Source of the DNA: Amphiura filiformis
Taxonomy: Eukaryota; Echinodermata; Ophiuroidea; Amphilepidida; Amphiuridae
Direction of reading: 5' to 3'
Assembly (NCBI RefSeq): GCF_039555335.1
Contig: NC_092647.1
Coordinates: 18,946,946-19,010,945 of the forward strand
DNA: 64,000 nucleotides
This document shows, one piece after another, positions 3,658 to 59,819 of this stretch (position 1 is its first letter; each line of letters starts with the position of its first letter). Position numbers and translations under genes: made by a program. The notes under the pieces were generated by a model. The model was given only the letters and a program-made list of their open reading frames with translations, did not search any database and had not been told where the DNA came from.

Positions 3658-5443
3658 TTACTCCTGGGTCTCCTTTACATGCGTTGGACAACTGCACAAC
3701 ACCTGCACCATGCCAAGTTTGCATTTGTCAAATGTGAATGGGAACTGACTATCAGGACGTCTTAGGTCTAATGTGTCATCTTCCACTGCTTCTGCAATGA
3801 CAATTGTAGGCCTATCACTGTCAAAGTCACAGATACATCTGTTTACTTTGTCCGACTCTTGGTCTTTACCTTTTGTAACGAGGTAGCAGATATTATCACG
3901 AAACACCAAATATGATCTGTCCATGTTTGCATCTACAGCAACATCTACCAATTCATCTTTGGCTGGTTTATATATGGCAAATTGCTCGATATTGCCTGTG
4001 TAATCGTAGTCACTATCGTCATCCAATGTTGCACCCATGACAAATATGTATTGTTCATTTTTTTGCATCAAAACATTGGTAGCATAATATGGGTCGAAGT
4101 AGAGATTACCAGCAGTCATTTCCCAAGTGTTGCTACTGATACTATACCTTTCTATCATGGTCTTATTCGTACTTCTGGCTAAGCCCATTGCATATATATA
4201 GTCATCACATTGGATCATTGCGGCCACATCAAAACATAGGGCATTGGAGGTAGCACACTCCACTCGTTCTTCTCAGAATTGTACTTAAAGAAATTGTTTT
4301 CAGATATCCACTTACGAATGACCACCAATTCAGTTGGCTGATGTCTACCGGACCATTTGGAATATTCATCATTGCCACCTGCAGCATATAAATAACCTGA
4401 GTCACTAACCAAGACTGCAATACCTATTTCGTCAACTTGTGGATCAAGATGTGGAATCTTATCAGGAACATCGGCAACTTTAGTTAGCTTATAACAAGCT
4501 GTTTCCATGCTGCACCTCAAAGAAATTATGGAATCACGATCCTCATCCTCTTCTGCCCATAACATGGCTGTGATAGTGTTTCTGGTCGCAAATAAATCCG
4601 GGCGAGTCGTGATCAATGAAGGTGAGGCAGTATCCTTGGTAACGCTCAACTTGACTACCTCCTCCACCATGTCCATACGCTCTGGTATGGCCATTATCTC
4701 ATCACCAAGGATCTTCTGGAGTCTGTCAATTGGCACCAATCCCAGACGTATCTTCTTCAGGAGATCAACTGCATGGACCTTACGCTGCTCCCAATCATAC
4801 TTCAGCCACATCACTGTTCCTTGCAGAATCTGTTCCTCTGTTGTGGTGTCTGTCTCTATTTCTTCATCGCTTAAGATCTCCATCATGACACTTGCAGAGG
4901 AATTCTCAAGAAATACCTTTGATTTAACACACTTCATAAAGTTCTGGATGACATGGCTTCTGTACATTTGTGCAACATCTCTAAGACTGTTATGATTGCT
5001 AGCAATCAACCAGATCTCAAACCAGTCTTCCACTGTTAGCTTATCTTTGACATCTTTCAGGTACTCGGCACATAACTCTACAGCTTTGGTTAAAATCATG
5101 TAAGTGGCCATTTTGAGAATATCTACCACTGTTCTAACTGATAAAGTTAAGTGCCCTGTATAAACAAAGTCCAAGATTTGGGCAAAGCTTTCTTCAGTTC
5201 CAGGAACAGTTATTTCACTCATTGTACTCTCTTGAAACCCTGATGAGAGAACATTCCTTGGAAGTAGTCACTTGTACAGCTTAAAACTGCTTTGTGAGCA
5301 GGAAATCTTTGATCTCCAACAATGATGGTGACATCGCAGAAGGTAGCCTGATGCCTTAACTGGTTAAGTCCCGAGGAGAGATGAGACAAGTGGGATGGGT
5401 CTCCCATTTGTTTAACACACTGGTCTTGTTCCATTCTTGCCAT
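3658..5443 (-). pseudogene. BTB-BACK-kelch gene 1, two frameshifts
   Basis: First member of the minus-strand kelch array. Three open segments chain in order: 5443-5219 (N-terminus starting MARMEQDQ and the front of the BTB domain), 5222-4215 (rest of BTB, BACK, first kelch blade) and 4263-3658 (remaining blades and the family C-terminal block FDKCKLGM...CSCPTH). The first break is near 5244-5250, where GATGAGAGAAC replaces the GATGAGAAC of gene 7; this is a 2-bp AG duplication. The second is near 4217, where one base is missing after the codons for VLMWPQ. All other family blocks are present, so the gene is either recently dead or carries two assembly errors. Its upstream 1.1 kb is nearly identical to that of gene 2. 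A LWDV-type kelch-domain drift is also visible compared with gene 2. Confidence 0.85.
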
Positions 5444-6560
5444 ATCTTATCATCAACAAGAACATATGCAAGATGTTATGAAATCAAAATGAACTGGCGA
5501 AACTTAACATACAAATGAAAGCCACATGCACAAACTAAGTTCATATATGCTGAATGTGTGGCATAAACATAGGCTCATGTAGTTAACTTGACTAGAAAAC
5601 ATACCACACAACCTTATGCACTTCTGTTCAATGGTAAAAAGTCAGGTGTAACACAAAGTTTATTGGTTTTCTGCGCTTACTGGTATAATTGTTCCAATTT
5701 TGTTGTTTAAAATTATCCACATAAGGTAGCTTGGCTAATGCTGACTTGTCTTCTGAATTGTGGTTGCTAGTTGTTCAGTGTTGACTTGAGTTATGGTATC
5801 TGCAGAATTGTGAGTAAGAGAGAATGAAGAGTTTCAGGAATTATTCTGTCTGGTTCCAAAATGTAACGCTATTATAAAGGACAACCAACCAACCCATAAC
5901 CAGTCAACCTGAATATTTGACAGGCATTAGATTTTTCAGCTACAATAACACCTCTTGTATATTGGTTACTACTTTAGAAGTAATGAAGTTGGAATTGTCC
6001 ATGTTCTCTCCCTTAATTTACAGTTACACAAGCAAAACATAAATGTACATATAGATGCAATGTAAACAATATAAATTGAATGTGACTGAAGTGGAATACT
6101 AAAATGTTGAATGTTCCAAATTATGATGAGAACAATCTACAATTCTGGAATAAAATAGTACACTTGTACTTAGCAATTGAAACATGTGCCCTATCAATTT
6201 TGAGAGGCGAGTAAAACATGCATGCAATATGTGGAGCACAGACACTCCTCAGTATAACCTCACCATTCCCCATCCTTCAATGTTGACAACTTGGCTTTAT
6301 CAAACATTTGGATTGGGGAAGTGGGGGCAGAAATATTTGTAGGTTCATGCAGCAGCTGTATCATGGGTTATTCAGCTTATTCTAGATACAACATCTTTGT
6401 AACACACAATCTGACCCAATTCTAGTAATGTATCAAAAATGTGTGAACATATGTTATATAACTGGAAAAGCATGATTAATACCCATTTTAAATTCTTTAT
6501 ACTCTATTGTCTCGTCTGAACTTGTTTAGAAAGAGACAAATTTCAAGTTAAAGAATGTTC
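5444..6560. repeat. Segmental duplication, copy A (upstream of kelch gene 1)
   Basis: Nearly identical to 9998-11125 in the same orientation, apart from small indels. It contains the SDHAF3 relic and otherwise no coding sequence. Together with genes 1 and 2 it defines a recent tandem duplication of roughly 3-4.5 kb. The similarity stops near 6535 (11110 in the other copy). Confidence 0.85.
5643..5799 (-). pseudogene. SDHAF3 last-exon relic upstream of kelch gene 1
   Basis: On the minus strand this begins after CTGCAG, reads ATACCATAACTCAAGTCAA and ends at the homologue of the SDHAF3 stop (CACCTGAC). It aligns with the intact SDHAF3 exon at 52655-52834, notably the CTCAAGTCAA start and the GGATAATTTTAAAC core, but the reading frame is closed by stops and indels. 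It lies 200 bp upstream of the kelch start codon. The donor seen in genes 2-6 (AAG|GTAAC) is AAGTTAAC here, so splicing in this copy is doubtful. Confidence 0.6.
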
Positions 6561-8200: not shown

Positions 8201-9997
8201 CTACATGTACTCCTGCATTGTTGACTTATCCTTCACATGAGATGCACACTCGCATGGCATTTCAATCATCCCAAGGTTGCGTTTGTCAAATGTAAACTCT
8301 ACTGAATTCATGTCTTCTCTCAGTTCTTGGATAGTTTCATACTGTTCATCTGTCACTTCCTCTGCGATGATAATTGTGGGACTATCACTATCCAAGTCAC
8401 ATATACATCTGTATATTTCGTCTGGTTCATGGTTTCCTCCTTTAGTGACAAGATAGCAGACACTATTATGCATTTCAAAATGTGAATCTCTACCCATGTC
8501 TCTATCGACAGAAACTTCCAACAATTCATTTGTAGCTGGTCTATACAGTGCTGTTTTGAAAACCTCAATTCCACCATCACCACCTTGCTGGTTGGGGCCC
8601 TCAACATATGCAATACCCACAACCATTATATTATGTTTTTGCACACAGTTTATTGGCGGGAAAGGGTGCAGGTATAGGTCATCTTCAACAATTTCCCATG
8701 TTTTGCTGGATATACAATATCTTTCAATTACTTGCTCTGGTCCACCTACACCAAGTAGATATATGTACTCGTCAAATTGAAACATCAAGGGGAAATACAA
8801 AACTACGGGCATTGGCGAAAGCACAATCCATTCGTTCTTCACAGAATCGTATCTGAAGAAATTGTTTTCAGAAAGCCATGTTTCATAGAGCTCTTCTTTT
8901 TCAGGATCATCATCTTCAAACCAGACACAACCACCTGCAGCATATAAATGACCTGAATCGGGAACAAATAGGTTAATACCACTTCCATATTCTTCTGTGG
9001 TTGCTTCATAAGGACAAGGAATGTCAGAAAATTTAGTGAGCCTAAAACATGCAGCTTCAGTACGGCATTTCAAAGGAATTAAGGCTTGTGACTCATCATC
9101 TCCATGTATGACACGCAACTTGGCAGTTATATTGTTTCTAGTAGCAAACAAATCTGGGTGACTTTTGATTAATGGCAATAAAGCAGTATCCTTGGTAACG
9201 CTCAACTTGACAACCTCCTCCGCCATTTCTTTACACTCTGGTATGGCCATTATCTCATCACCAAGAATCTCCTGGAGTCTGTCAACTGGCACCAAACCAA
9301 GACGTATCTTCTTCAGGAGATCAACAGCATGGACCTTGCGCTGCTCCCAATCATACTTCAGCCACATCACTGTTCCTTGTAGGATCTGTTCCTCTGTTGT
9401 GGTGTCTGTCTCTATTTCTTCATCGCTTAAGATCTCCATCATGACACTTACAGAGGAATTCTCCAGAAATACCTTTGACTTAACACATTTAACCATGTTC
9501 TGGATAACATGGCTTCTGTATATTTGTGCAACATTTGAAAGACTTTTATGATTGCTAGCAATCAACCAGATCTCAAAACAGTCTTCAATTGTAAGCTTAT
9601 CTTTGACATCTTTAAGGTACTCGGCACACAACTCTACAGTTTTGGTCATAACCATGTAACAGGCCATTTTAAGAATGCCCACAACTGTTCTTAATGATAG
9701 AGTAAAATGTCCTGTATAAGCAAAGTCCAAGATTTGGGCAAAGCTTTCTTCAGTTCCAGGAACAGTTATTTCACTCATTGTACTCTCTTGAAACCCAGAT
9801 GTGAACATTCCTTGAAAGTAGTCACTTGCACAGCTTAGAACTGCTTTGTGAGCAGGAAATCTTTGATCTCCAACAATGATGGTGACATCACAGAAGGCAG
9901 CCTGATGTCTTAACTGGTTAAGTCCTGAGGAGAGATGAGACAAGTGGGATGGGTCTCCCATTTGTTTTAAACACTGCTCTTGTTCCATTCTTGCCAT
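8201..9997 (-). CDS. BTB-BACK-kelch protein, gene 2 (598 aa)
   Basis: Predicted substrate adaptor of a Cullin-3 RING ubiquitin ligase, by family: BTB binds CUL3 and dimerises, the kelch propeller binds substrate. BTB lies at about residues 26-134 (FCDVTIIVGDQRFPAHKAVL, then the YFQGMF and FAYTGHFTLS blocks). BACK is at about 139-250 (EDCFEIW, the acidic DEEIETDTTTEEQIL stretch, MWLKYDWEQRK). Degenerate kelch blades start near residue 350 (HLYAAGG; FFRYDSVKNEWIVLSPMP; ERYCISSKTWEIV). The C-terminus has the family block FDKRNLGM...CECASHVK. The length of 598 aa is usual for the KLHL family. It is a single coding exon; the start is supported by the conserved MARMEQ in all paralogues. I cannot assign an orthologue, and the substrate is unknown. 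Confidence 0.93.
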   Translation of the reverse strand: MARMEQEQCLKQMGDPSHLSHLSSGLNQLRHQAAFCDVTIIVGDQRFPAHKAVLSCASDYFQGMFTSGFQESTMSEITVPGTEESFAQILDFAYTGHFTLSLRTVVGILKMACYMVMTKTVELCAEYLKDVKDKLTIEDCFEIWLIASNHKSLSNVAQIYRSHVIQNMVKCVKSKVFLENSSVSVMMEILSDEEIETDTTTEEQILQGTVMWLKYDWEQRKVHAVDLLKKIRLGLVPVDRLQEILGDEIMAIPECKEMAEEVVKLSVTKDTALLPLIKSHPDLFATRNNITAKLRVIHGDDESQALIPLKCRTEAACFRLTKFSDIPCPYEATTEEYGSGINLFVPDSGHLYAAGGCVWFEDDDPEKEELYETWLSENNFFRYDSVKNEWIVLSPMPVVLYFPLMFQFDEYIYLLGVGGPEQVIERYCISSKTWEIVEDDLYLHPFPPINCVQKHNIMVVGIAYVEGPNQQGGDGGIEVFKTALYRPATNELLEVSVDRDMGRDSHFEMHNSVCYLVTKGGNHEPDEIYRCICDLDSDSPTIIIAEEVTDEQYETIQELREDMNSVEFTFDKRNLGMIEMPCECASHVKDKSTMQEYM

Positions 9998-11125
9998 ATC
10001 TTATCATCAACAATAATGCATGCAAGATGTTATGAAATCAAAATGAACTGGTGAAACTTAATATACAAATGAAAGCCACATAAACAAACTAGGTTCATAT
10101 GCTGAATGTGTAGCATAAACATAGGCTCATTATGTGGTTACCTTGACAAGAAAACACACCACATGCACAAAACCTTATGCACTTCTGTTCATTGGTAAAA
10201 AGTCTGGTGTAACACAAAGTTTATTGGTTTTCTGCGCTTACTGGTATGATTGTTCCAATTTTGTAGTTTAAAATTATCCACATAAGGTAGCTTGGCTAAT
10301 GCTGACTTGTCTTCTGAATTGTGGTTGCTAGTTGTTCAGTGTTGACTTGAGTTATGGTATCTGCAGAATTGTGAGTAAGAGAGAATGAAGAGTTTCAGGA
10401 ATTATTCTGTCTGGTTCCAAAATGTAACACTGTTATAAAGGACAACCAACCAACCCATAACCAGTCAACCTGAATATTTGACAGGCATTAGATTTTTCAG
10501 CTACAATAACACCTCTTGTATATTGGTTACTACTTTAGAAGTAATGAAGTTGGAATTGTCCATGTTCTCTCCCCTAATTTACAAGTTCCACAAGCAAAAC
10601 ATAAATGTACATATAGATGCAATGTAAACAATATAAATTGAATGTGACTGAAGTGGAATACTGAAATGTTGAATGTTCCAAATAATTGAATGTTCCAAAT
10701 TATGATGAGAACAATCTACAATCCTGGAATAAACTAGTTGGCACACTTGTACTTACTGATTGAAATACATGTCCTATCAAAATTAGAGAGGCGAGTAAAA
10801 CATGCATGCAACATAATGTGGAGCACAGACTCCCGGCCCATCAGTATATTCTCACCCTTCCTCATCCTTCAATGTTGACAACTTGGCTTTATCCAACATT
10901 GCATTGGGGAAGTGGGGGCAGAAATATTTGTAGGTTCATGCAGCAGCTGTATCATGGGTTATTCCGCTTATTCTAGATACAACATCTTTGTAACACACAA
11001 TCTGACCCAATTCTAGTAATGTATCAAAAATGTGTGAACATATGTTATATAACTGGAAAAGCATGATTAATACCCATTTTAAATTCTTTATCCTCTATTG
11101 TCTCATCTGAACTTGTTCAGAAAGA
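9998..11125. repeat. Segmental duplication, copy B (upstream of kelch gene 2)
   Basis: Counterpart of 5444-6560. It differs by scattered substitutions and a short local duplication near 10670-10695 (GAATGTTCCAAA repeated). Divergence begins near 11110. Confidence 0.85.
10203..10360 (-). pseudogene. SDHAF3 last-exon relic upstream of kelch gene 2
   Basis: Same layout as upstream of gene 1. On the minus strand a pyrimidine-rich tract runs into CTGCAG|ATACCATAACTC, and the relic ends at CACCAGAC where SDHAF3 has its TGA. The segment reading GTGGATAATTTTAAACTACA aligns with GTTGGACAGTTTTAAACAAG of the intact exon. No long reading frame remains. About 50 bp closer to the gene, at 10138-10150, the minus strand reads CTTGTCAAG|GTAACC, a good splice-donor candidate. 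Confidence 0.62.
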
Positions 11126-13315: not shown

Positions 13316-15106
13316 CTACTCCTGCATTGTTGACTTATCCTTTACATGAGATGCACACTTGCATGGTACTTTCATCATCCCAAGGTTGCGTTTGTCAAAT
13401 GTAAACACTTCTGAATTCAAGTCTTCTTTTAGTTCTTGAATACTTTCATAAAGTTCACCTGTCACTTCCTCTGCACTGACAATTGTGGGACTATCACTGT
13501 CAAAGTCACATATACATCTGTTTATTTGGTCTGGCTCTTGGTTTCTTCCTTCAGTGACAAGATAGCGAATACCCTTATAAACGTCAAAATATGAATATCT
13601 ATCTAAACTTTTATCAACAGAAACTTCTAACAATTCATTTGTGGCTGGTCTATAAAGTGCCATGCACTTTGAAAACTCCAAATCCACCATCACCACCATG
13701 TTGATTGGGGCCTTCAACAATTGCATTACCCATGAGCAATATATACCTTTTTTGCATAAATATAGTTAAGGCTGGGTGAAGGTATAGGTCATCTTCCATA
13801 ATTTCCCATGTTTTCCTGACTATACTATACCTTTCAATCATGTTCTTAGTTTGGAATAATTCATTTTCAGCTGTACCAAATAGATATATACTCTCATCAA
13901 ATTGATACATCCTGGGGAAGAGAAGGACTACAGGCATTGGAGGAAGAACAATCCATTCATTCTTCTCCGAATCGTATCTGAAGAAATTGTTTTTAGAAAG
14001 CCATTTTTGATACTTTGCTGCCATTTCAGGTTCCTTGTCATCAAAATAAACAGTATTATTGCCACCTGCCGCATATAAATGACCTGTATCAGAAACAATT
14101 ATTTCAATACCACTTGACTCTTCTTCTGATTCCAAATATGGACATTTCTCAGGTATATCAGCAAATTTAGTCAGCTCATAACATGATGTATTAGTACTGC
14201 ATTTTATTTTGATAGAACTAGCTTCATGATCTATGTGCAATTTAGCAGTAATAGTGTTTCTAGTCGCAAACAAATCACGGTGACTTCGGATCAATGGCGG
14301 TGAAGCAGTATCCTTGGTAACACTCAACTTGACAACCTCCTCCACCATTTCTTTGCATTCCAGTATTGCTAGTAACTCATCACCAAGGAGCGGTTTGAGT
14401 CTGTCAACTGGCACCAAGCCAAGACGTAACTTCTTCAGGAGATCAACTGCATGAACTTTACGCTGCTCCCAATCATACTTCAGCCACATCACTGTTCCTT
14501 GCAGAATCTGTTCCTCTGTCGTGGTGTCTGTCTCTATTTCTTCATTGCTTAAGATCTCCATCATGATGCTTATGCGGTGGAATTCTCAAGAAATACCTTT
14601 GATTTAACACACTTCAGAAAGTTCGGAATAATTTGTGCAATTTCTGACAGACTGGTGTGATTTCTTGCAATTGACCATATCTCATAACAGTCTTCAATAG
14701 TGAACTTATGTTTGATATCTCTCAAATACTTGGCACATAATTCTACTGCTTCAGTAAAAACCATGTAACAGGCCATTTTGAGAATATCCACAACATTTCT
14801 CAATGAGAGAGTAAAGTATCCTGTATAAGCAAAGTCCAAGATTTGGGCAAAGCTTTCTTCAGTTCCAGGAACAGTTATCTCATTCATTATGCTCTCTTGA
14901 AACCCTGATGTGAACATTCCTTGGAAGTAATCACTTGCACAGCTCAGAACTGCTTTGTGAGCAGGAAATCGTTCATCACCAACAATGATGGTGACATCAC
15001 AGAAGGCAGCCTGATGCCTTAACTGGTTAAGTCCTGAGGAGAGATGAGACAAGTGGGATGGGTCTCCCATTTGCTTTACACACTGGTCTTGTTCCATTCT
15101 TGCCAT
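13316..15106 (-). pseudogene. BTB-BACK-kelch gene 3, frameshifted
   Basis: Three open segments: 15106-14570 (BTB and part of BACK), 14564-13650 (rest of BACK and first blades) and 13726-13316 (last blades and C-terminus). In BACK, a 15-bp in-frame deletion removes five residues of the MYRSHVIQ block. Shortly after, near 14566-14572, two extra bases create a TAA. A second shift near 13675 lies at the Lys-Val-His codons before GTL. Its closest relative in the window is gene 5 (shared NTSCYELTKFADIP and the flanks). A minus-strand AATAAA at 13219-13224, about 100 bp past the stop, matches the one after gene 5. Confidence 0.87.
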
Positions 15107-15312: not shown

Positions 15313-15436
15313 GATGGCAAAGAAAGTTTCTTGGTTTCTTGAGCTTACTTGTAAGTTAGAGTTGGTCAATCCTGAATTGTCCTATGATCTTTGGTTGGTC
15401 TTGGTTGTTGTCATAAAGCCACTTGAGTTATGATAT
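15313..15436 (-). pseudogene. SDHAF3 last-exon relic upstream of kelch gene 3
   Basis: On the minus strand the tract ATTTATACAG|ATATCATAACTCAAG marks the acceptor side, followed by decayed sequence ending near TTTGCCATC. It is nearly identical to the relic of gene 5. A donor-like CTTGTCAAG|GTAACT follows at about 15260-15275. It has no coding capacity left. Confidence 0.55.
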
Positions 15437-23439: not shown

Positions 23440-25256
23440 CTAATCGCCATTTGTTTGTTTTTCCTTTAAATGGGATGCGCAGTCGCATGGCATTTCCATC
23501 GATCCTAGTTTGCGTTTGTCAAATATGAATCTTGCTGTACCCAGGTTTTCTGGTTTTTTTACCATTCTGTTTTGCCATTTAATACTTGAATAAATCTCAT
23601 CTTCTACTTCCTCAGCAATAACAATGGTTGGACCATCACTGTCAAAGTTGCATATGCACCTGTTTACTTAGTTTGGTTCTTGGCCTTTGCCTTTGGTGAT
23701 GAGATAGCAGATACTATTATGCACTTCAAAATATGAATCCCTATCTATACATTTATTGACAGAAACTTCTATCAATTCATTTGTGGTTGGTCTATACAGT
23801 GCAGCTTTGAAAACCACAATGTAGTTGCGGTTGACACCCACTTGATGATTAGGGCCTTCCACTTCGTCATCGCCGCTGAACAGCACAAGCCCATTCACAA
23901 CACTTGCATATCTTGGGGAAAGAAACAGGTTATCTACAGCAAGTTCCCATGTTTTGCTGGGTATATTATACCTTTCAATACTGTTCCGGTGGCTGTAATC
24001 ATCATAAGCTGAACCAATTACATATATATATTCATCCAATTGAAACATCATCGGGTAGAACAATACTTTAGGCATTGGGGGAAGTACATTCCATTCATTC
24101 TTCTCAGAATCGTACATGAAGAAATTGTTTTCAGAAACCCACTTTAGATGATTTTCTTCTTTTCACGATTATCACCATATTCAACAATGCTGCCACCTGC
24201 AGCAAATAGATGACCTTCATCACTGACAAATAATTCAGTACCACTTTGTGGTTTATCCAATTCCAAGTAAGCAATTTCATAAGGAATATCAGCAAATTTA
24301 GTAAGTTTATAACATGCTGAACTGGTACTGTATGCTACAGATAATAAAGAATCTGATTCATCGAATTCAACTACATTTAGGTGGGCTGCAATATTATTTC
24401 TAGCAAACAAATATGGATAGCTGTTGATTACTAGTGGTGAAGTAGTATCTTTGGTAATGCTCAACAGATGTACCTCCTCCACCATTTCTTTGCACTCTGG
24501 TATGGCTAGCAACTCTTCACCAAGGATCTCATGGAGCCTGTCAACTGGCACCAAACCAAGACGTATCTCCTCCAGGAGATCAACAGCATGGACCTTACGC
24601 TGTTCCCAATTATGCTTCAGCCACATCACTGCTCCTTGCAGAATCTGTTCCTCTGTTGTGGTGTCTGTCTCTATTTCTTCATCACTTAATATATCCATCA
24701 TGACACTTGCGGTGGAATTCTCAAGAAATACATTTGATTTAACACACTTCAGGAAGTTCTGAATAACATGGTTTCTGTACAGTTGTGTAACATCTGAAAT
24801 ATTGCTATGATTGCTAGTAATTGACCAGATCTCAAAACAGTCTTCCACTGTAAGCTTATCTTTGACATCTTTCAGGTACTCAGCACATAACTCTATAGCT
24901 TTGGTCAAAACCATGTAACAGGCCATTTTGAGAATACCTGTGACAGTTCTCACTGAGAGAGTGAATTGCCCTGTATAAGCAAAGTCTAAGATTTGGGCAA
25001 AGCTTTCTTCAGTTCCAGGAACAGTTATCTCACTCATTGTACTTTCTTGAAACCCTGATGTGAACATTCCTTGGAAGTAGTCACTTGCACAGCTTAGAAC
25101 TGCTTTGTGAGCAGGAAATCTTTGATCTCCAACAATGATAGTGACATCACAGAAGGCAGCCTGATGCCTTAACTGGTTAAGTCCTGAGGAGAGATGAGAC
25201 AAGTGGGATGGGTCTCCCATTTGTTTTACACACTGGTCTTGTTCCATTCTTGCCAT
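23440..25256 (-). pseudogene. BTB-BACK-kelch gene 4, one frameshift and one stop
   Basis: Open from the MARMEQDQ start at 25256 to 24144 (370 aa: BTB, BACK, first blade), then shifted, with the kelch part continuing at 24117-23668. The shift is between NREKKKII and the expected WVSENNFF block near 24145. At about 23668-23670 a TAA stands where paralogues have a Gln or equivalent codon in the PDQVNRCIC block. Reading through it gives VNRCICNFDSDGPTIVIAEE and the C-terminal CDCASHLK block, ending at TAG 23440-23442. A minus-strand AATAAA at 23395-23400 is a possible polyadenylation signal. Either the gene is decayed or, if both lesions are errors, it is intact. Confidence 0.85.
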
Positions 25257-25450: not shown

Positions 25451-25601
25451 CAGGTGGGACATGAAGTTTATTGGTTTCCTGAGCTTACTTGTACAATTGG
25501 TCCAATTGTTGTTTAAAATTGTCCACATAGAGTTACTTGGCCAATGTTGAATTGTCATCTGATTTGTGGTCGCTTGTTGTTACGTGTGCTGATTATGGTA
25601 C
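25451..25601 (-). pseudogene. SDHAF3 last-exon relic upstream of kelch gene 4
   Basis: Minus strand: AATTATGCAG|GTACCATAATC at the upstream edge and CCCACCTGAC at the downstream edge, matching the stop-codon context of the intact SDHAF3 exon. TTTTAAACAACAATTGGACC in the middle resembles the SDFKQEQLDQ coding stretch. The frame is broken. The donor candidate GACAAG|GTAACT lies at about 25370-25382. Confidence 0.6.
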
Positions 25602-27447: not shown

Positions 27448-29247
27448 CTACTCCTTCATTGTTGACTTGTCCTTTACATGAGATGCACACTTGCATGGTA
27501 CTTTCATCATCCCAAGGTTGCGTTTGTCAAATGTAAACTCTTCTGAATTTACGTCTTCTTTCAGTTCTTGAATACTTCTATAAAGTTCATCAGTAACTTC
27601 CTCTGCAATGACTATTGTAGGACTATCGCTGTCAAAGTCACATGTACATCTGTGTACTTGGTCTCGTTCTTGGCCTATTCCTTCGGTGACGAAACAGTAG
27701 ACACTATTATGCACTGCAACATGTGAATTTCTACCTATATTTCTATCAACAGAAACTTCTAACAATTCATTTGTAGCTGGTCTATACAGTGCCACATTCC
27801 GTACCACAATTCCACCATCCCGACCTTGCTGATTGGGGCCCTCAACATACTGAGTCACCTGTGACCAATATATATTGTTTTGCACAACTGTAACATATAC
27901 TGGGTCAAGGTATAGGTCATCTTCAATAATTTTCCATGTTTTACTGGCTATACTATACCTTTCAATCATCTCCTTACTTGGCAAATCATCATATTCAACT
28001 GTACCAATTAGATATATATACTCATCAAATTGATACATGAAGGGGAATAGAAGGACTACAGGCATTGGAGGAAGAACAATCCATTCATTCTTCTCAGAAT
28101 TGTATCTGAAGAAATTGTTCTCAGAAAGCCATTTTCGATAATTTGCTGCCTTTTCAGGTTCCTCGTCATCAAAGTACACAATATTATTACCACCTGCAGC
28201 ATATAAATGACCTGTATCAGAAACCATTATTCCAATACCACTTGGTGGCTCTTCTGATTCCAAATATGGAAATTTGTCAGGTATATCAGCAAATTTAGTC
28301 AGCTCATAACATGATGTATTAGTACTGCATTTTAGTTTTATAGAACTAGCTTCATAATCCATGTACAATTTAGCAGTAATAGTGTTTCTAGTTGCAAACA
28401 AATATTGATGACTCTGGTTTAATGGCGGTGAAGCAGTATTTTTGGTAACACTCAACTTGACAACCTCCTCCACCATTTCTTTACACTCTGGTATTCCTAT
28501 TATCTCATCACCAAGGATCTGTTTGAGTCTGTCAACTGGCACCAAACCAAGACGTATCTTCTTCAGGAGATCAACAGCATGGACTTTACGCTGCTCCCAA
28601 TTATGCTTCAGCCACATCACAGTTCCTTGCAGAATCAGTTCCTCTGTCGACATATCTGTCTCTATTTCTTCATCACTTAAGATCTCAATAATGACACTTG
28701 CAGAGGAATTCTCAAGAAATACCTTTGATTTAACACACTTCAGAAAGTTCTGAATAACATGGCTTCGATACATTTGTGCAATTTCTGACAGACTGGTGTG
28801 ATTCCTTGCAATTGACCATATCTCATAACAGTCTTCAATAGTGAACTTATGTTTGACGCCTCTTAGATACTTGGCACATAATTCCACTGCTTCAGTGAAC
28901 ACCATGTAACAGGCCATTTTGAGAATATCCACAACATTTCTTAATGAGAGAGTAAAGTATCCTGTATAAGCAAAGTCCAAGATTTTTGCAAAGCTTTCTT
29001 CAGTTCCAGGAACAGTTATTTCACTCATTGTACTCTCTTGAAACCCTGATGTGAACATTCCTTGAAAGTAGTCACTTGCACAGCTTAAAACTGCTTTATG
29101 AGCAGGAAATCTTTGATCTCCAACAATGATGGTGACATCACAGAAGGCAGCCTGATGCCTTAACTGGTTAAGTCCTGAGGAGAGATGAGACAAGTGGGAT
29201 GGGTCTCCCATTTGCTTTACACACTGGTCTTGTTCCATTCTTGCCAT
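27448..29247 (-). CDS. BTB-BACK-kelch protein, gene 5 (599 aa)
   Basis: Intact member of the array. BTB is at about residues 26-134 (AAFCDVTIIVGDQRF, YFQGMFTSGF, FAYTGYFTLS). BACK is at about 139-250 with the shared DEEIETD acidic segment and MWLKHNWEQRK. Kelch-type blades run from about residue 350 (HLYAAGG; FFRYNSEKNEWIVLPPMP; IERYSIASKTWKI), and the protein ends FDKRNLGMMKVPCKC. Predicted CUL3 adaptor, substrate unknown. Its flanks on both sides match gene 3, which is broken, so gene 5 may be the surviving copy of that pair. A polyadenylation-like AATAAA sits at 27343-27348 on the minus strand. Confidence 0.93.
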   Translation of the reverse strand: MARMEQDQCVKQMGDPSHLSHLSSGLNQLRHQAAFCDVTIIVGDQRFPAHKAVLSCASDYFQGMFTSGFQESTMSEITVPGTEESFAKILDFAYTGYFTLSLRNVVDILKMACYMVFTEAVELCAKYLRGVKHKFTIEDCYEIWSIARNHTSLSEIAQMYRSHVIQNFLKCVKSKVFLENSSASVIIEILSDEEIETDMSTEELILQGTVMWLKHNWEQRKVHAVDLLKKIRLGLVPVDRLKQILGDEIIGIPECKEMVEEVVKLSVTKNTASPPLNQSHQYLFATRNTITAKLYMDYEASSIKLKCSTNTSCYELTKFADIPDKFPYLESEEPPSGIGIMVSDTGHLYAAGGNNIVYFDDEEPEKAANYRKWLSENNFFRYNSEKNEWIVLPPMPVVLLFPFMYQFDEYIYLIGTVEYDDLPSKEMIERYSIASKTWKIIEDDLYLDPVYVTVVQNNIYWSQVTQYVEGPNQQGRDGGIVVRNVALYRPATNELLEVSVDRNIGRNSHVAVHNSVYCFVTEGIGQERDQVHRCTCDFDSDSPTIVIAEEVTDELYRSIQELKEDVNSEEFTFDKRNLGMMKVPCKCASHVKDKSTMKE

Positions 29248-35734: not shown

Positions 35735-36060
35735 ATCATCTTTTCGTGACATTTTTCAGCAGATATCCACAAAAAAAGCTTATTCCCAAAATTTCAGTTA
35801 ATTCCGATTTTGTGAGTTCTGCATGATGTGTATTACACTGCTCCATAGACAATGTGTTGTAGTTTTGTTCTGGTGTACCAGAACGTAATTCAATTTTCAC
35901 GATATTTGTGCTACACAAATTAATCTGCAAGATACTTTGTGTACATAAACATTATGGAGCCAAAGGTTTCCAGTGGTATAAAAATCTCACCTTTTTGAGA
36001 AAAGTGGGGGGATGATGCTGCCGATCACTAAATGCCCATTTAAGAGTGTTAGTTATAAGA
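35735..36060. repeat. Dispersed repeat R2, copy 1
   Basis: About 320 bp matching 49783-50105 in the same orientation (CAGATATCCACAAAAAAAGC, TGTATTACACTGCTCCATAG, GAGAAAAGTG.GGGATGATGC). Family not recognised. Confidence 0.65.
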
Positions 36061-38324: not shown

Positions 38325-40097
38325 TCATTTTTTTCCCTTCACATGGGATGCACAATCGCATTGCATTGGCACCATACCAAGTTTGCGTTTGTCAAATGTG
38401 AACTCTTTTTTGGCCTGGTCTGCTCTTTTATATGCTTGTCTAACTGCTCTGCAAGTATCTGTATCTTCTTTTAGAGTCTCTGCAATCGTAATCGAAGGCC
38501 CATCACTCTCAAAGTCACAAAGAACCCTCTTCACTTGGTCAGACATTGTGATTAGGTAACAGATATTGTCAACCACAACAAAATCTGACATTCTTTCCAA
38601 CTTAGTGTCACAGGAAACATTCAACCACTTGTCATTGGCCGGTTTGTAGAGACCTAGCTTGACGATTTCTCTCCTTGCTGTACTACCTCTTCCGATGATT
38701 TCTTTCAAACTGAGTGTTCCTTTCACCAACAGGTTTCCATTCACTTCAACAACATTATGTGCAGTCAAGCCAATACCATCTCTAACAACTTCCCATGCAT
38801 TTCTATGGAAACTATACTTTTCAATCAACCACTTACTTCTGTCAATTCCAGCGACACCAATTGAATAAATACATTCACCTATCTGAACCATTTGGGGCCA
38901 GTGGCGAATCTCTAGCATCGGTGGAAGCACATTCCATTCATTCTTCTCAGAATTATACCGGAAGAAATTGTTTCTAGAAAGCCACTCGTATTGACCTTGT
39001 GTTGAGTCAAACAATGGGAACCTAGCTCCGGCAGCATACAAATGACCTGCATCACTAACCAACAATAGAGCACAATTATACAGGTCATCTGATTCTTGAT
39101 ATGGTAATTTGTTAGGAACATCTGCAAATTTGGTGAGCTTGTAACAAGATGTTTCGTCACTGCTTGCTATTGAAATAACAGACCTATCCGATATATCTCT
39201 ACCAGTATATACAGATACTGCAGCTGTGATGGTGTTTCTGGTTGCAAACAAATCTGGGTGACTCTTCATCAATTGGGGTGAAGCAGTATCCATGATATCA
39301 CTCAGCTTGACAACCTCCTCCATCATTTCTTTACACTCTGGTATGGTCATGAAGTCATCACCAAGGATCTGCTGGAGTCTGTCAACTGGCACCAAACCAA
39401 GACGTATATTCTTCAGGAGATCAACAGCATGGACCTTACGCTGCTCCCAATCATACTGCAGCCACATCACTGTTCCTTGCAGAATCTGTTCCTCTGTCGA
39501 GGTGTCTGTCTCTATTTCTTCATCGCTTAAGATCTCCATCATGACACTTGCAGAAGCATTCTCCAGAAATACTTTTGTTTTAACACATTTCACAAAGTTC
39601 TGGATAACATGGCTTCTGTACATTTGTGCAACATTTGACAGACTTTTATGATTGCTAGCAATCAACCAGATCTCAAAACAGTCTTCCACTGTAAGCTTAT
39701 CTTTGACATCTTTAAGGTACTCTGCACATAACGCTACAGCTTTGGTTAAAACCATATAACAGGCCATTTTGAGAATACACACAACTGTTCTTAATGAGAG
39801 ACTGAAGTGTCCTGTATAAGCAAAGTCCAAGATTTGGGCAAAGCTTTCTTCAGTTCCAGGAACAGTTATTTCACTCATTGTACTCTCTTGAAAACCTGAT
39901 GTGAACATTCCTTGAAAGTAGTCACTTGCACAGCTTAGAACTGCTTTGTGAGCAGAAAATCTTTGATCTCCAACAATGATAGTGACATCACAGAAGGCAG
40001 CCTGATGCCTTAACTGGTTAAGTCCTGAGGAGAGATGAGACAAGTGGGATGGGTCTCCCATTTGTTTTACACACTGGTCTTGTTCCATTCTTGCCAT
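38325..40097 (-). CDS. BTB-BACK-kelch protein, gene 6 (590 aa)
   Basis: Intact member. The first 250 residues are nearly the family consensus (one change, RFSAHK for RFPAHK, in the BTB core). The kelch half is very different from genes 1-5: LLVSDAGHLYAAGARFP, EWLSRNNFFRYNSEKNEW, LPPMLEIRHWPQM, then FVVVDNICYLITMSDQVKR and FDKRKLGMVPMQCDC. It resembles gene 7 most in the kelch part (LPPML, RHW/RHL, VKRVLCDFESD). Slightly short for the family. A predicted CUL3-ligase adaptor with probably its own substrate range. Confidence 0.93.
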   Translation of the reverse strand: MARMEQDQCVKQMGDPSHLSHLSSGLNQLRHQAAFCDVTIIVGDQRFSAHKAVLSCASDYFQGMFTSGFQESTMSEITVPGTEESFAQILDFAYTGHFSLSLRTVVCILKMACYMVLTKAVALCAEYLKDVKDKLTVEDCFEIWLIASNHKSLSNVAQMYRSHVIQNFVKCVKTKVFLENASASVMMEILSDEEIETDTSTEEQILQGTVMWLQYDWEQRKVHAVDLLKNIRLGLVPVDRLQQILGDDFMTIPECKEMMEEVVKLSDIMDTASPQLMKSHPDLFATRNTITAAVSVYTGRDISDRSVISIASSDETSCYKLTKFADVPNKLPYQESDDLYNCALLLVSDAGHLYAAGARFPLFDSTQGQYEWLSRNNFFRYNSEKNEWNVLPPMLEIRHWPQMVQIGECIYSIGVAGIDRSKWLIEKYSFHRNAWEVVRDGIGLTAHNVVEVNGNLLVKGTLSLKEIIGRGSTARREIVKLGLYKPANDKWLNVSCDTKLERMSDFVVVDNICYLITMSDQVKRVLCDFESDGPSITIAETLKEDTDTCRAVRQAYKRADQAKKEFTFDKRKLGMVPMQCDCASHVKGKK

Positions 40098-40292: not shown

Positions 40293-40425
40293 TCAGGTGG
40301 CACAGGAAGCTGCTTGGTTTCCCAATCTTTCTAGTGTAGTTGCTCCAATTGTTGTATAGGGTTAGTTTGCCAATCCTGAACTATCTTTGGTTAGTGCTGA
40401 CTTTAAGCCCCTCCAGTGATGGTAT
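40293..40425 (-). pseudogene. SDHAF3 last-exon relic upstream of kelch gene 6
   Basis: Minus strand: ATATTTATACAG|ATACCATCACTGG, then decayed sequence ending GTGCCACCTGACATC, which matches the ATGCCACCTGACC end of the intact SDHAF3 exon. The segment CTACACTAGAAAGATTGG aligns with the stretch encoding YELAKETS. Frame lost. It lies 196 bp upstream of the kelch start. The donor candidate TTGTCAAG|GTAACTAC lies at about 40243-40255. Confidence 0.65.
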
Positions 40426-49782: not shown

Positions 49783-50105
49783 CTCTTTTTATGAAATTTT
49801 TCAGTAGATATCCACGAAAAAAGCTTGTTCCCAAAATTTCAGTTGATTCCGATTTTGCGTTTGCGAATTAAAATGCATGATTATGTGTATTACACTGCTC
49901 CATAGACAATGTGTTGTAATTTCGTTCTGGTACACCAGAACAAAATTCAAATTTCACGATATCTTTGCTAAACAAATTAATCTGCAAGAAATTGTACATA
50001 AACGTTATGTAGCCAAAGGATTCCAGTATTGGTATACAAATCTCAACTTTTTTTGAGAAAAGTGTGGGATGATGCTCTGCATCACGAAATGCCCTTTCAA
50101 ATGAA
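49783..50105. repeat. Dispersed repeat R2, copy 2
   Basis: See 35735-36060; the same order of landmarks with about one change per ten bases. Confidence 0.65.
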
Positions 50106-50607: not shown

Positions 50608-52407
50608 TCATCTATGTTTGTTAACTCCATTCTCTGTGTGGGGTTTACAACTGCACTCCATTGGTATCATGCCAACTTTGTGTTTGTCAAATGTGAATTC
50701 ACCAATACTCTGGAGTGCTTCTTTAATTTTCATGTATGTACATTTATCAGTACTTTTTTTTACAGTCTCTGCAATCCTAATTGAAGGCCTGTCACTTTCA
50801 AAGTCACAAAGAACCTTCTTTATTTTGGGTGAGTCTGTGATTACTAGGTAACAGATATTGTCAACTTCTGCGAAGAATGACCATTGTTCCAACTGTCTGA
50901 CAGGTGAAATATGAACATCCCACCATTCATCTTTGGCTGGTTTATACAGTGCAACCTTTACAACTTCTATTCTTGACGTTTGTTCACCGTGACACATAAT
51001 TCCTTTGATCAACAGATATCCATTAACTATTACAACATGAACTGCCATAAAGCCGAGCTCATCTCTAACGATTTCCCACTTGTTACTGGAGAAACTATAT
51101 TTCTCCATTACGCTGTTCATTAATTGGGCATTTTCAGTTGAACCAATTGAATAAATAAATTCATCTAGCTGAATCAATTGATGCAAATGACGAATCTTAA
51201 GCATCGGTGGGAGCACATTCCATTCATTCTTCTCAGAATTGTACCGGAAGAAATTGTTTTCAGACAGACACTTGTAATGACTTTCTAGACGTTCTGGTGT
51301 TGTGCTAAACGATGCAAATTCCTTGCCTCCTCCGCCATACAAATGACCTGCATCAGAAACCAATAATCCAACACCATTTGTCAGATCATCTGATTCTTGA
51401 TATGTAAATTTGCTAGGAAAATCAGCAAATTTGGTGAGCTTGTAACATGCTGTTTCAGTTCTACATTCAATAGAAATACCTGACCCCAACTTATACCCAT
51501 CATGATTTATACCATGATTTACATGTAATACAGATGTGATTGTGTTTCTGGTTGCAAATAAGTCTGGGTGACTCTTTATCACTTGGGGTGAAGCGATATC
51601 CATGATATCACTTAACTTCACAACCATCTTCACCATGTCCTTGCACGCTGGAATGGCTAACAACTCATCATCATGGATCTGCAGGAGTCTGTCAACTGGC
51701 ACCAAACCAAGACGTATCTTCTTCAGGAGATCAACAGCATGGGCCTTGCGCTGCTCCCAATCATACTTCAGCCACATCACTGTTCCTTGCAGAATATGTT
51801 CCTCAGTCACGGTGTCTGTTTCTATTTCCTCATCACTTAAGATCTCCATCATGACACTTGCAGAAGAATTCTCCAGAAATACCTCTGATTTAACACACTT
51901 CAGAAAGTTCTGGACAACATGGCTTCTGTATATCTGTGCAACTTCTGAAAGACTGTTATGATTGCTTGCGATTGACCAGATCTCAAAACAGTCTTCCACT
52001 GGGAGCTTATCTTTGACATTTTTCAGGTACTCTGCACACAACTGTACAGCTGTGGTCAAAACCATGTAACAGGCCATTTTGATAATACCTGTGACTGTTG
52101 TTAATGAGAGAGTGAAGTGCCCTGTGTAGTAAAAGTCCAAGATTTGGACGAAGCTTTCTTCAGTTCCAGGAACAATTATTTCACTCATTGTACTCTCCTG
52201 AAACCCTGATGAGAACATTCCTTGGAAGTAATCACTTGCACAGCTTAGAACTGCTTTGTGAGCAGGAAATCCTTGATCTCCAACAATGATGGTGACATCA
52301 CAGAAGGCAGCCTGATGCCTTAACTGGTTAAGTCCTGATGAGAGATGAGACAAATGGGATGGGTCTCCCATTTGCTTTACACACTGGTCTTGAACTGATG
52401 TTGCCAT
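50608..52407 (-). CDS. BTB-BACK-kelch protein, gene 7 (599 aa)
   Basis: Intact member closest to SDHAF3. An upstream in-frame ATG at 52446 would add 13 residues, but the start at 52407 (MATSVQDQCVKQMGD) aligns with the MARMEQDQCVKQMGD start of all paralogues and is preferred. BTB (FCDVTIIVGDQGFPAHK, YYTGHFTLS) and BACK (EDCFEIWSIASNH, DEEIETDTVTEEH, MWLKYDWEQRK) are typical. The kelch half has HLYGGGG, FFRYNSEKNEWNVLPPML and EKYSFSSNKWEIV, and the C-terminus FDKHKVGMIPMECSC. It differs from genes 1-6 at residues 3-5. AATAAA at 50486-50491 (minus strand) is a possible polyadenylation signal. Confidence 0.92.
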   Translation of the reverse strand: MATSVQDQCVKQMGDPSHLSHLSSGLNQLRHQAAFCDVTIIVGDQGFPAHKAVLSCASDYFQGMFSSGFQESTMSEIIVPGTEESFVQILDFYYTGHFTLSLTTVTGIIKMACYMVLTTAVQLCAEYLKNVKDKLPVEDCFEIWSIASNHNSLSEVAQIYRSHVVQNFLKCVKSEVFLENSSASVMMEILSDEEIETDTVTEEHILQGTVMWLKYDWEQRKAHAVDLLKKIRLGLVPVDRLLQIHDDELLAIPACKDMVKMVVKLSDIMDIASPQVIKSHPDLFATRNTITSVLHVNHGINHDGYKLGSGISIECRTETACYKLTKFADFPSKFTYQESDDLTNGVGLLVSDAGHLYGGGGKEFASFSTTPERLESHYKCLSENNFFRYNSEKNEWNVLPPMLKIRHLHQLIQLDEFIYSIGSTENAQLMNSVMEKYSFSSNKWEIVRDELGFMAVHVVIVNGYLLIKGIMCHGEQTSRIEVVKVALYKPAKDEWWDVHISPVRQLEQWSFFAEVDNICYLVITDSPKIKKVLCDFESDRPSIRIAETVKKSTDKCTYMKIKEALQSIGEFTFDKHKVGMIPMECSCKPHTENGVNKHR

Positions 52408-52654: not shown

Positions 52655-52834
52655 TCAGGTGGCATATAAAAGCTTAGATGTCTCTTTCGCTAACTCATAG
52701 AGTTGGTCTAATTGTTCTTGTTTAAAACTGTCCAACACAGATTCCTCTAGATGTTGTCCAACATTGAATGGTTTCTGATCTGTAGCTGAGCTTAGCTGAT
52801 GGCAGTGCAGGATTGACTTGAGCACATCTGTATT
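52655..52834 (-). CDS. SDHAF3: SDHAF3 (ACN9) last coding exon
   Basis: SDHAF3 is a mitochondrial LYR-family factor that helps mature the iron-sulfur subunit SDHB of complex II. On the minus strand a strong acceptor (pyrimidine tract ending CCCTCTCAG) precedes AATACAGATGTG, and the exon reads open in phase 0 to a TGA: NTDVLKSILHCHQL..., then NVGQHLEESVLDSFKQEQLD and QLYELAKETSKLLYAT. This fits the C-terminal half of known SDHAF3, where a FGTFLPEEKLNDFRDEQIGQ-type stretch is followed by LQELMQEATK. It joins in phase with the exon(s) ending MVEWK at 54429 or 54558. It lies about 250 bp upstream of kelch gene 7 on the same strand. The assignment rests on remembered family sequence, not on a search. 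Confidence 0.78.
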   Translation of the reverse strand, partial: NTDVLKSILHCHQLSSATDQKPFNVGQHLEESVLDSFKQEQLDQLYELAKETSKLLYAT

Positions 52835-54428
52835 CTGAGAGGGATAAAATAAAAAGAAAAAATACTGAGCATATTCATCAGGACTGTTATTGAAAATAGA
52901 GACAAATTTCATAGATCTAGTTCAATTACAACAGCACTTACTGTCAGATTTCTTTCTCAACACTGATGTTGTTGTGGACGACCTTCTGTTTTCAACTCGC
53001 TGTTGCTCATCATTGACTGAGAGGCGGCTAAGATTTTAGGCAAAGAGACAGATAAATACAAATGGATCAAACAAGCAGTGAAAATCAGGCAGCAAGGCAC
53101 CACCCTGAACAGAGACCAGGGGCAATACAACCCAACTCACATGTTTGACGATCTTCTGTAGAAGAAACCAACTGGCAACCACGTTGCTGAGCAACAACAA
53201 GTTGTAAGCAGGTTGTCACAACAACATTAATAAAGAAATCTGACAGATTTTGAAACGTCCACAGTTGGTGCTGTTCTATAAAAAGAGAAAGTATTTTGAT
53301 AGTATACGTACTAATATTTACATTTTATCTACGATAAACATCAGCCAGGTCATTGATGTACCTGTATAAAATTGGATGACTTCATCTTTTATAGAAGTGG
53401 ACAAAAACGATTGAGACTAAGACGACTTTTGTAACTATTTGGAGGTCAAGATTTAAGTTAAAGCCCAAAATGCACAAGAAACATACAGGCTGTATCAAAA
53501 TGATTGATCTCCATGTTTTTTGGTGTTTTTGAAAAATCTGCCTGTTCCAAAAACACCACTGGATCTACCTGAAATGACCTGCAGACCACTAAACTTTTAA
53601 CTCTTTGTAACTCAAGTAACCATTCGTAAAGTTACGAATACCCAATACTAGACTAACTTTACGAAGAGTGCCTGTAGTAAATCCCTATTACGTACGGAGA
53701 GTACCGTTCGTAAGTAAGTTTAATGACATGGAACTTACTACTTGTCATAAGTTAGAGGCTTTTGAGACTTACAAAGTTTCGTAAAGTTTAGTGAAATGGA
53801 CCCCAGATCAAGGGTGAAAATAAGAGAGCTTGAACCAGGGGCCACTTTGGCAAAAAAAGTGGCCCCTGGTTCACCAAGATTTGGAAGAACCAGGGGCCAT
53901 TTATATAGATATTTAAATAAGCACTATTTACTTGTAATTTGATATTTTTGGTTCACTATCCAGGGGGCCAGTTTTGTGAGAAAGTGTCCCCTGGTCAACT
54001 AAAAATTGAGATGGAACCAGGGGCCATTTCTGAGTTTCTGGGGGACAAACTGCTCCCTTCTCCCACTTAATTTCACCCCTGACCCAGATGTAATTTTTTA
54101 ATATTTCATATTCAAAATGCTGTCAATTTCCTGTTGATCCAACATTTGGTGCGTTTGGAAGAATCAGACATTTCATACCAGATCCTATATCTGGAGCAAA
54201 AAAATATGTCTACCGCACTGCTACATGTAAATAGTTATGGATAAGACTATAGTCGACTTAGTCATGCAATTAAGGAAGTCATTTAAAGTCTTGAAGACAC
54301 CTTGGGCCTTGGTTCATGGTAGTTCAGTGTGGGCCTTAAGTCTTAATAAGAACGTAGAATTTCCACAAATCTTTGCATACTGAATAAAGAAAATTGTTTA
54401 TGAGTGTCATAAAAAGATCATTGCGTAC
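52835..54428 (-). other. SDHAF3 presumed intron, no other gene seen
   Basis: Sequence between the SDHAF3 exons. It holds a short repeated motif ACCAGGGGCCA in both orientations at 53834-54030 (one pair at 53834-53873 forms a hairpin) and AT-rich sequence. A motif near 53790-53805 (GTTTAGTGAAATGGACCCC) recurs inverted near 21408, marking a dispersed repeat. No ORF with recognisable content. Confidence 0.4.
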
Positions 54429-54511
54429 CTTCCATTCAACCATAAATTTTGCAGCTTCATACGTTGGGACGTCTTTGTGTCTTCTGAATTCCGCTTTCAC
54501 ATACTCGTCTC
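54429..54511 (-). CDS. SDHAF3: SDHAF3 penultimate exon, tandem copy a
   Basis: An 83-bp minus-strand segment bounded by TTGTAG|GAGACGAG and TGGAAG|GTACGC. With one base from a preceding exon it encodes GDEYVKAEFRRHKDVPTYEA and ends AAKFMVEWK, the diagnostic central block of SDHAF3 (G-D-x-Y-V-K-x-E-F-R-R-H-K). It ends in phase 0, matching the exon at 52834. It is a duplicate of the segment ending at 54558, offset by about 129 bp, and keeps only the last part of that exon. Whether it is spliced in, used alternatively or silent cannot be told. Confidence 0.65.
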
Positions 54512-54557
54512 CTACAACTTGTTAAAATGAGTACAAAAAAAAGATCATATTCCCTAC

Positions 54558-54695
54558 CTTCCATTCAACCATAAATTTTGCAGCTTCATACGCTGGGATG
54601 TCTTTGTGTCTTCTGAATTCGGCTTTCACACACTCATCTCCCTATGGCTTGTAAACGGCAAAGATCTGTGTAGTACCAGGATCCTCATATAGGCT
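54558..54695 (-). pseudogene. SDHAF3: SDHAF3 upstream exon, copy b, with two frame breaks
   Basis: Minus strand, recognisable from an LY(R)-like motif at about 54695-54687 (SLY), then RILVLHRSLP in a second frame, then LQAIGDECVKAEFRRHKDIP and AYEAAKFMVEWK ending at donor TGGAAG|GTAGGG (54558). The order LY-R-x-L-x-L-H-R-x-LP, then GDE-VKAEFRRHK, is that of SDHAF3. The frame changes near 54686 and again between 54642 and 54655 by single bases. No start Met was found upstream, so a first exon or the start is missing, or the copy is broken. If the indels are sequencing errors this would be a normal SDHAF3 exon. Confidence 0.65.
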
Positions 54696-55859
54696 CTTCC
54701 TCTTACACAGACTCCAAACAGCTGATGAGTTACTGGAAATGTAATCCTGTGAGTGATTGTGTAAGAGATGACAAACAATCAGTTGACATCATACTTGCAT
54801 GTTGTGTTCAACAGCAAACTTGAAGTTGGACCTCTTACATGTAAGAGGAGAGTAAGACTTACTCTACTTGTAGGGGTAGAGGATGTGGTAAACAATGGAA
54901 ATGTAAGGATTACCTCATCATGTTTTTAGAGATTACAAAATTGCAATTGTTTTTTTTTTTCATTTGAATAAAAACAAATTCAAATATTTTCCTGACGTGT
55001 ACCATCTCCGCCAATTTCCTTTTTAATCCCCCTTTTTTTTAATTTCCCTTTTTTTAATTTCCCTTTTTTTAATTTCCCCTTTTTTTTTAATTCCTTTTTT
55101 TAATTTCCCCTTTTTTTTTAATTTCCCGGTTTTTTTAATTTCCCCTTTTTTTTTAATTTCCGCTTTTTTTAATTTCCCTTTTTTAATTTCCTTTTTTTTA
55201 ATTTCCCTTTTTTTTTAATTCCCTTTTTTTAATTTCCTTTTTTTTAATTTCCCTTTTTTTAATTTCCCTTTTTTTTTAATTTCCCTTTTTTAATTTCCCC
55301 TTTTTTTAATCCCCTTTTATTTTCTCACAAAGCAGAATCTTTGCCGAGGCACATACTCAGTACTCAGTGGTTGTCCAAGAATTTGCTCGCTTCCCGCTGC
55401 GTACTATGCTGGTCTTTACGCACTGTAGTCTTTTACGTGTGACAGACCATGGATATAGTATATGGAGAGACCCACTGTGTAGATGTCAGTGGTCAGACCA
55501 TGTGTGTGTATCCACTGATATAGCCTGTGCCGGAGCCTGTGTGCTAGGGCCGTGACTTATTTCAAGTCACGGAAAACCGTAAGAATACTGGTATATAAAT
55601 CGCAGTAGTTTTATCCCGGCCCGTGGGGGGGGGGGGAGTGTAATTTTCCCAAGGCGTGCCAAAAAATGGCTTGCTTCCCTTCTCGGCCCTGCCAAAAAAA
55701 ATCTTCGCCTCCCCCCTCCTTTGCACATGCCAAATGTTTTAAAATTGCCATCAAAATTGCCATGTAAAGGGACGGCATATTCGTACTATTTAATAGAGCT
55801 ATTTAATAGAGCTATTTTATGACTATTAGGCCTATGTGACTATTTTTGCATTTTTCTCA

Positions 55860-59265: not shown

Positions 59266-59819
59266 TACTTGGGGAAAATAAAAAAAGGGGAAATTCAAAA
59301 AAAAGGTGAAATTAAAAAAAAAAGGAAATTAAAAAAAAAGGTGAAATTAAAAAAAAAAGGAAATTAAAAAAAAAAAAGGTGAAATTAAAAAAAAAAGGGG
59401 ACATTAAAAAAAAGGGAAATTAAAAAAAAAAAAGGGGGAAATTAAAAAAAAAGGGGAAATTTAAAAAAAAAGGGGAAATTAAAAAAAAAGGGAAGGGAAA
59501 TTCAAAAAAAAGGTAAAATTAAAAAAAAAAGGTGAAATTAAAAAAAAAGGTGAAATTAAAAAAAAAAAAGGAAATTAAAAAAAAAGGTGAAATTAAAAAA
59601 AAGGGACATTAAAAAAAGGGAAATTCAAAAAAAAAAAGTGAAATTAAAATAAAAGGGGGAAATTTAAAAAAAAAGTGAAATTAAAAAAAAAAAGGGAAAT
59701 TAAAAAAAGGAAATTACAAAAAAAGGGAAATTAAAAAGGAAATTGGCGGAGATGGTACACCAGTATTTTCCTCAATCTGTTTCAAAATGTCTGTAATGAT
59801 GACAATCTACTTTTGAATA

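Follow-up and report, generated by a model that had tools for sequence, protein, structure and literature searches.

The locus studied here raises two linked questions: how seven BTB-kelch genes came to lie in a row on one strand, and why each of them is preceded, on the same strand and at a similar spacing, by one copy of an exon resembling the last exon of the mitochondrial assembly gene SDHAF3. We analyzed the whole stretch of DNA, which is 64 kb (64,000 nucleotides) long and is referred to below as the window.

The BTB-kelch array

Seven BTB-kelch genes are found on the minus strand of the 64-kb window, of which g2, g5, g6, and g7 are open and g1, g3, and g4 are broken:

3658..5443, minus strand: BTB-kelch gene 1 (g1), broken, in pieces; start codon at 5443
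8201..9997, minus strand: BTB-kelch gene 2 (g2), open; start codon at 9997
13337..15106, minus strand: BTB-kelch gene 3 (g3), broken, in pieces; start codon at 15106
23470..25256, minus strand: BTB-kelch gene 4 (g4), broken, in two frames; start codon at 25256
27448..29247, minus strand: BTB-kelch gene 5 (g5), open; start codon at 29247
38325..40097, minus strand: BTB-kelch gene 6 (g6), open, mosaic; start codon at 40097
50608..52407, minus strand: BTB-BACK-kelch gene 7 (g7), open; start codon at 52407

In a Pfam scan of the four open genes, all passed the BTB and BACK cut-offs, while the cut-off of the kelch model was passed in g2, g5, and g7, with g6 below it. Solved structures matched by the kelch proteins of the array include KBTBD2, KEAP1, KLHL3, KLHL11, and KLHL22. 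The array genes share BTB, BACK, and kelch motifs with the BTB-BACK-kelch (KLHL/KBTBD) proteins, but differ from them in standing in tandem, in having the coding part of the open genes in one ORF, and in the combination of a homogenised BTB half with a strongly diverged kelch half. Homology extends beyond the kelch gene itself and is common to all units, in the same order and on the same strand, as in tandem segmental duplicates.

In a comparison of the 800-bp segments that follow the kelch stop codons, the g7 flank had no match to the flank directly behind any other kelch gene. The segment 508-800 bp behind g7 (49808-50100) matches 35763-36043 on the same strand at 82%, a stretch located about 2.3 kb past g6; this is possibly a shared flank or a dispersed repeat. 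Between g6 and g7 there is a 2.2-kb direct repeat (41641-43796 and 45522-47677, 97% identical), both copies of which contain a piece that is hit by the profile built from the upstream regions of g3, g5, and g6 (E 5e-4 to 6e-4).

Elsewhere in the window, a reverse transcriptase ORF lies at 60059-60847 on the plus strand (RVT_1, 126.9 bits), and the ORF that comes after it (60854-61327) has no Pfam match at E<=0.01. In the whole window there are 13 occurrences of the palindrome TAGGCCTA, compared to 0.7 expected from base composition. Palindrome enrichment of this kind may be a feature of echinoderm-like genomes.

SDHAF3 sequence beside gene 7

SDHAF3, also known as ACN9 and, in yeast, Sdh7, is described as a LYR-type assembly factor of complex II (PMC5525311, PMC4381221), and the human gene is described as having two exons (PMC5525311). 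A preliminary description of this DNA had placed SDHAF3 at the head of the array, with its diagnostic blocks at 54429-54695 and 52655-52834 joined by fitting splice sites. We recognize the following parts:

54656..54703, minus strand: LYR-helix piece of SDHAF3 exon 1 (RGRAYMRILVLHRSLP), frame-broken from the downstream part
54558..54641, minus strand: SDHAF3 exon 1 tail, copy a (GDECVKAEFRRHKDIPAYEAAKFMVEWK); PF13233 19.3 bits, tblastn E 9e-7
54429..54512, minus strand: exon 1 tail, copy b, a tandem duplicate (GDEYVKAEFRRHKDVPTYEAAKFMVEWK); 79 of 84 bases as in copy a
52655..52834, minus strand: last exon of SDHAF3, 59 open codons and TGA; 0 of 2000 shuffles as good against human SDHAF3

With human SDHAF3 as the query, tblastn against the window yielded only three matches below E 0.29, all of them beside g7: 54515-54426 (60% over 30, E 3e-8), 54641-54555 (55% over 29, E 9e-7), and 52759-52673, which is the C-terminal block in the last exon (13/29 residues, 45%, E 0.002). 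In the Pfam family PF13233 (Complex1_LYR_2), with a cut-off of 22.3 bits, the 28-residue translation of copy b (54429-54512, minus strand) scored 22.5 bits, copy a remained below the cut-off, and copy b joined to the 52655-52834 exon reached 23.8 bits. The last exon alone matched no Pfam family at E<=1, and the joined peptide had no match at E<=10 in the PDB sequence set. The exon joint is in frame (EWK/gtacgc ... ctctcag/AATACA). Human Phe53, reported as required for the full function of human SDHAF3 in yeast (PMC5525311), is kept: it corresponds in the alignment to the F in AAKFMVEWK. The homology of the two blocks and the fitting splice are borne out, and the prediction that the minus strand at 52655-52834 codes for the C-terminal part of SDHAF3 holds. 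Similar to the known SDHAF3/ACN9/Sdh7, the locus has the EFRRHK...EWK block (PF13233), the C-terminal block, and an intron between them; unlike in these, exon 1 is frame-broken and its tail is duplicated.

The composition of the 54429-54695 block had been overlooked: the 28-codon piece, which is the last of exon 1, is present twice, and the frame-broken LYR piece is present in addition. The LYR piece lies directly upstream of copy a and aligns with residues 8-24 of human SDHAF3 (0 of 200 shuffles as good), but its LYR motif is altered (RA-YMR vs RALYKR); opposite the human RVRALYKRVLQLHRVLP, the piece 54656-54703 reads RGRA-YMRILVLHRSLP. Between this piece and copy a, at residues 26 to 30, there are a frameshift and a stop, no in-frame ATG was found upstream of the LYR piece in the sequence read, and the locus has no continuous SDHAF3 ORF with a start codon. 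With exon 1 damaged in this way, SDHAF3 is now probably a pseudogene or an incomplete copy, or dependent on exons outside those recognized. We infer that the human intron lies at the same place as the one found here. If the intron positions agree, the LYR piece and copy a are the original exon 1, and copy b is a partial duplicate. Upstream of SDHAF3, A-rich repeat units lie at 54997-55323, and an inverted similar stretch (81%) is found at 59388-59760.

Alternatively, SDHAF3 at 52655-54703 may be a working gene, with exon 1 using a GT within copy a as donor and an AG before copy b as acceptor, thereby bypassing the broken joint, or with an exon farther upstream. Judged by eye, this GT and AG would yield a continuous frame, the last exon is open, and copies a and b diverge less in the coding part (5/84) than in the following intron (6/29; hand alignment, Fisher p 0.03). 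However, three of the five coding differences alter a residue, and the LYR piece with its altered motif would still lack an upstream in-frame ATG. We consider a working gene rather unlikely.

Exon relics upstream of the other kelch genes

According to the preliminary description, decayed copies of the last exon lie upstream of the six other kelch genes. In the list below, direct matches come from local alignment against the dinucleotide-shuffled exon (2000 shuffles), and protein matches from comparison of the relics with the g7 exon protein, frameshifts allowed (200 shuffles); the counts are of shuffles that were as good.

5643..5799, minus strand: relic of g1; direct 0/2000, protein 0/200; shared TAA and frameshift
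10203..10360, minus strand: relic of g2; direct 0/2000, protein 1/200; shared TAA and frameshift
15313..15436, minus strand: relic of g3; direct 30/2000, protein 47/200; shared TAA, core lacks about 35 bp
25451..25601, minus strand: relic of g4, the best preserved; direct 0/2000, protein 0/200; shared TAA
29622..29745, minus strand: relic of g5; direct 30/2000, protein 130/200; shared TAA, core lacks about 35 bp
40293..40425, minus strand: relic of g6; profile of g1-g5 E 1.1e-14, direct 25/2000, protein 28/200; in-frame TAG in the end part, by eye

By coordinates, the distance from relic to kelch ATG is 195-375 bp, in agreement with the 196-375 bp given before, and for the g7 exon it is 248 bp. 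A profile of the six relics, built without g7, had seven matches in 64 kb at E<=1, namely the relics themselves and 52656-52799, the latter with E 1.1e-8. The profile of g1, g2, and g4 recovered g6 (7e-10), g7 (4e-8), g3 (8e-7), and g5 (6e-6), along with one chance-level match at 0.53, and the profile of g3, g5, and g6 recovered g1, g2, and g4 and missed g7. In all profiles other than the six-relic one, the only matches outside the seven copies had E 0.34-0.9. The alignment beyond chance that had been claimed for all relics is therefore seen directly for g1, g2, and g4, and through profiles for all; as the direct exon match of g3, g5, and g6 is weak, these three were placed through profiles. 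Taken together, the profile and direct alignments show the six relics to be homologous to the SDHAF3 exon of g7. Chance or A+T-rich low complexity is a vanishingly improbable source of the upstream similarity: the three relics that are weak alone, and whose own profile misses g7, would fit it, but not the recovery of g7 at E 1.1e-8 by a profile that otherwise finds only relics in 64 kb, nor the absence of equally good shuffles for g1, g2, and g4.

The relics tested alone against human SDHAF3 (g1 and g4) were at chance level, with 796/2000 shuffles as good for g1 and 58/2000 for g4; in another alignment of the g4 relic, 15/200 shuffles reached the score. Since neither of these two relics on its own exceeds chance against the human protein, the SDHAF3 origin of the relics rests on the g7 exon.

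Contrary to what had been stated, the start, core, and end motifs are not common to all copies. The core TTTTAAAC is present in g1, g2, g4, and g7 and missing in g3, g5, and g6, CACCTGAC is found only in g1, g4, g6, and g7, and CTCAAGTCAA, a stretch of the start quoted earlier, only in g1, g2, and g7. In five of the six relics (g1-g5), codon 48 of the exon, read in the SDHAF3 frame, is TAA, and g1 and g2 also contain a frameshift. For g3 and g5 the TAA rests on the DNA alignment, since their protein match is weak. The TAG of the g6 relic is one codon before the TAA site of the others, by eye. Relics g1-g5 look as if they had been copied after the shared stop arose. The AG that heads the relics is 7 nt downstream of the frame-fitting SDHAF3 acceptor. 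With flanks included, the relics are 0.46-0.55 identical to g7, so their difference is close to the g7 pS of 0.45-0.63 in kelch codons 361-600. With a divergence from g7 near that pS, the relic is by default taken as a neutral passenger.

While the other six copies decayed, the g7 last exon was probably maintained, and SDHAF3 would then not have been idle since the array formed. This is suggested by simulations in which free drift rarely leaves the exon open. With an assumed indel rate, 0.06% and 0% of 5000 runs at 0.35 and 0.5 substitutions per site kept the exon open without any frameshifting indel, and 6.2% and 4.5% kept it open when stops only were counted; at 0.2 and 0.1 substitutions per site, it was open without frameshifting indels in 1.0% and 7.6%. 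The g7 branch length is 0.35-0.51 in unrooted trees, and because they are unrooted, some of this length may belong outside the g7 lineage.

Possible reuse of the relics

Alternatively, the old SDHAF3 exon could have been recruited by the kelch genes to serve as a 5'-UTR exon or a promoter element, with the AG at the head of the relic and one of two donor-like stretches in the relic region, CAAGGTAACTAC or GTAAGC, as splice sites. GTAAGC goes back to the change that also produced the stop shared by relics g1-g5. We scanned conservation with g2, g3, g4, and g6 as representatives, excluding the final 110 nt before the ATG, and compared it with neutral simulations, relying on the 243 of 900 runs that matched the data in mean conservation and gaps. 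The four representatives have conserved blocks at the AG, twice within the relic, and at CAAGGTAAC, and four peaks of at least 0.75 were reached by 4/243 matched simulations. On the other hand, the highest single peak was reached by 20/243, and the peak threshold was changed between analyses, from 0.70 to 0.75. In earlier simulations, at least four peaks appeared in 0/100 runs under each of three settings at 0.70 and in 2, 0, 0, and 0 of 200 runs under four settings at 0.75, but all these runs were more diverged than the data. Moreover, g1 and g7 carry CAAGTTAAC in place of CAAGGTAAC and thus lack GTAAC, GTAAG is absent from g6 and g7, the conserved AG differs from the frame-fitting SDHAF3 acceptor, and exchange between units could also yield patchy conservation. 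Reuse as a kelch 5' element is therefore doubtful, and exaptation for the whole kelch family, whether as a promoter element or as a 5'-UTR exon that is spliced, is slightly more doubtful still. If true, the array would owe a common regulatory head to an accident of duplication.

Unit histories and mosaicism

Returning to the relic as a passenger, we compared the history of the 5' ends with that of the kelch genes. The tree of the regions upstream of the ATG contains two groups, ((g1,g2),g4) and ((g3,g5),g6), each with at least 95 on both support measures, and g7 stands apart. The position of g6 with g3 and g5 has support 98/99, and a g6+g7 grouping is rejected for the whole upstream region (p 0.019); in a tree of the relic exon only, g6 with g7 stays unrejected (p 0.106). 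In the kelch domain (codons 361-600), by contrast, g6 groups with g7 (100/99) and g3+g5+g6 is rejected (p 3e-41), and in codons 1-240 it groups with g2 (94/90). Unit 6 is, by these trees, a mosaic, with its upstream part going with units 3 and 5 and its kelch domain with gene 7. The conflict between the upstream and the kelch-domain trees means that units have exchanged parts, and with such exchange the relic records the history of 5' ends only. Relic and kelch domain therefore differ in history.

Synonymous distances are 0.18-0.45 in codons 1-200 and 0.26-1.75 in codons 361-600. In the latter, dN reaches 0.57, in contrast to the homogenised BTB half; this pattern would fit a ligand-binding part that diversifies behind a shared adaptor.

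Origin of the array

We estimate the probability that the array arose by DNA-level tandem duplication of the end of SDHAF3 together with a kelch gene, with later exchange and passenger decay, at roughly 0.85. The relic found at all six other units agrees with the earlier proposal of such a unit. The order of events we infer would start from a kelch gene as the immediate downstream neighbour of SDHAF3. One endpoint of a tandem duplication would have fallen within the last intron of SDHAF3, so that last exon, spacer, and kelch gene would have been duplicated together as a block, to be multiplied afterwards. Cut off from the upstream exons, the exon would have decayed as a passenger in the new units; at g7 it would have stayed attached to the rest of SDHAF3, with its frame open. 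Later exchange between units would have homogenised the BTB halves and produced mosaics such as unit 6, and SDHAF3 at g7 would then have lost a readable first exon, or it may rely on exons unrecognized here. As tblastn of the window found other SDHAF3 sequence only beside g7, this unit is likely the parent side, as the preliminary description had it. Profiles of the 60-200 bp upstream of the exon copies gave no link of g7 to the others beyond the acceptor.

Tandem duplications with a breakpoint in a neighbouring gene, giving partial and chimeric copies, are described, for example, in Drosophila yakuba (PMC5460883). As far as they are described there, those duplicates are likewise DNA-level tandem copies able to carry part of a gene; here, by contrast, 7/7 units have the captured piece on the upstream side of the duplicated gene, most copies of this old piece have decayed, and exchange of parts between the units followed. 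The one publication found on SDHAF3 together with tandem duplication concerns, by its title, human mitochondrial pathologies, and titles and abstract openings on echinoderm kelch/BTB tandem genes, among the matches listed, mention no comparable array.

The mechanism itself is an ordinary, known mode of gene-family growth, and the array is an old case of it, visible in 7/7 units, not a new kind. The passenger marks the copied block, so that the 5' ends reveal a history separate from that of the kelch genes, in which exchange has blurred the BTB halves. In unit 6, it reveals a 5' end and a kelch domain of different ancestry.
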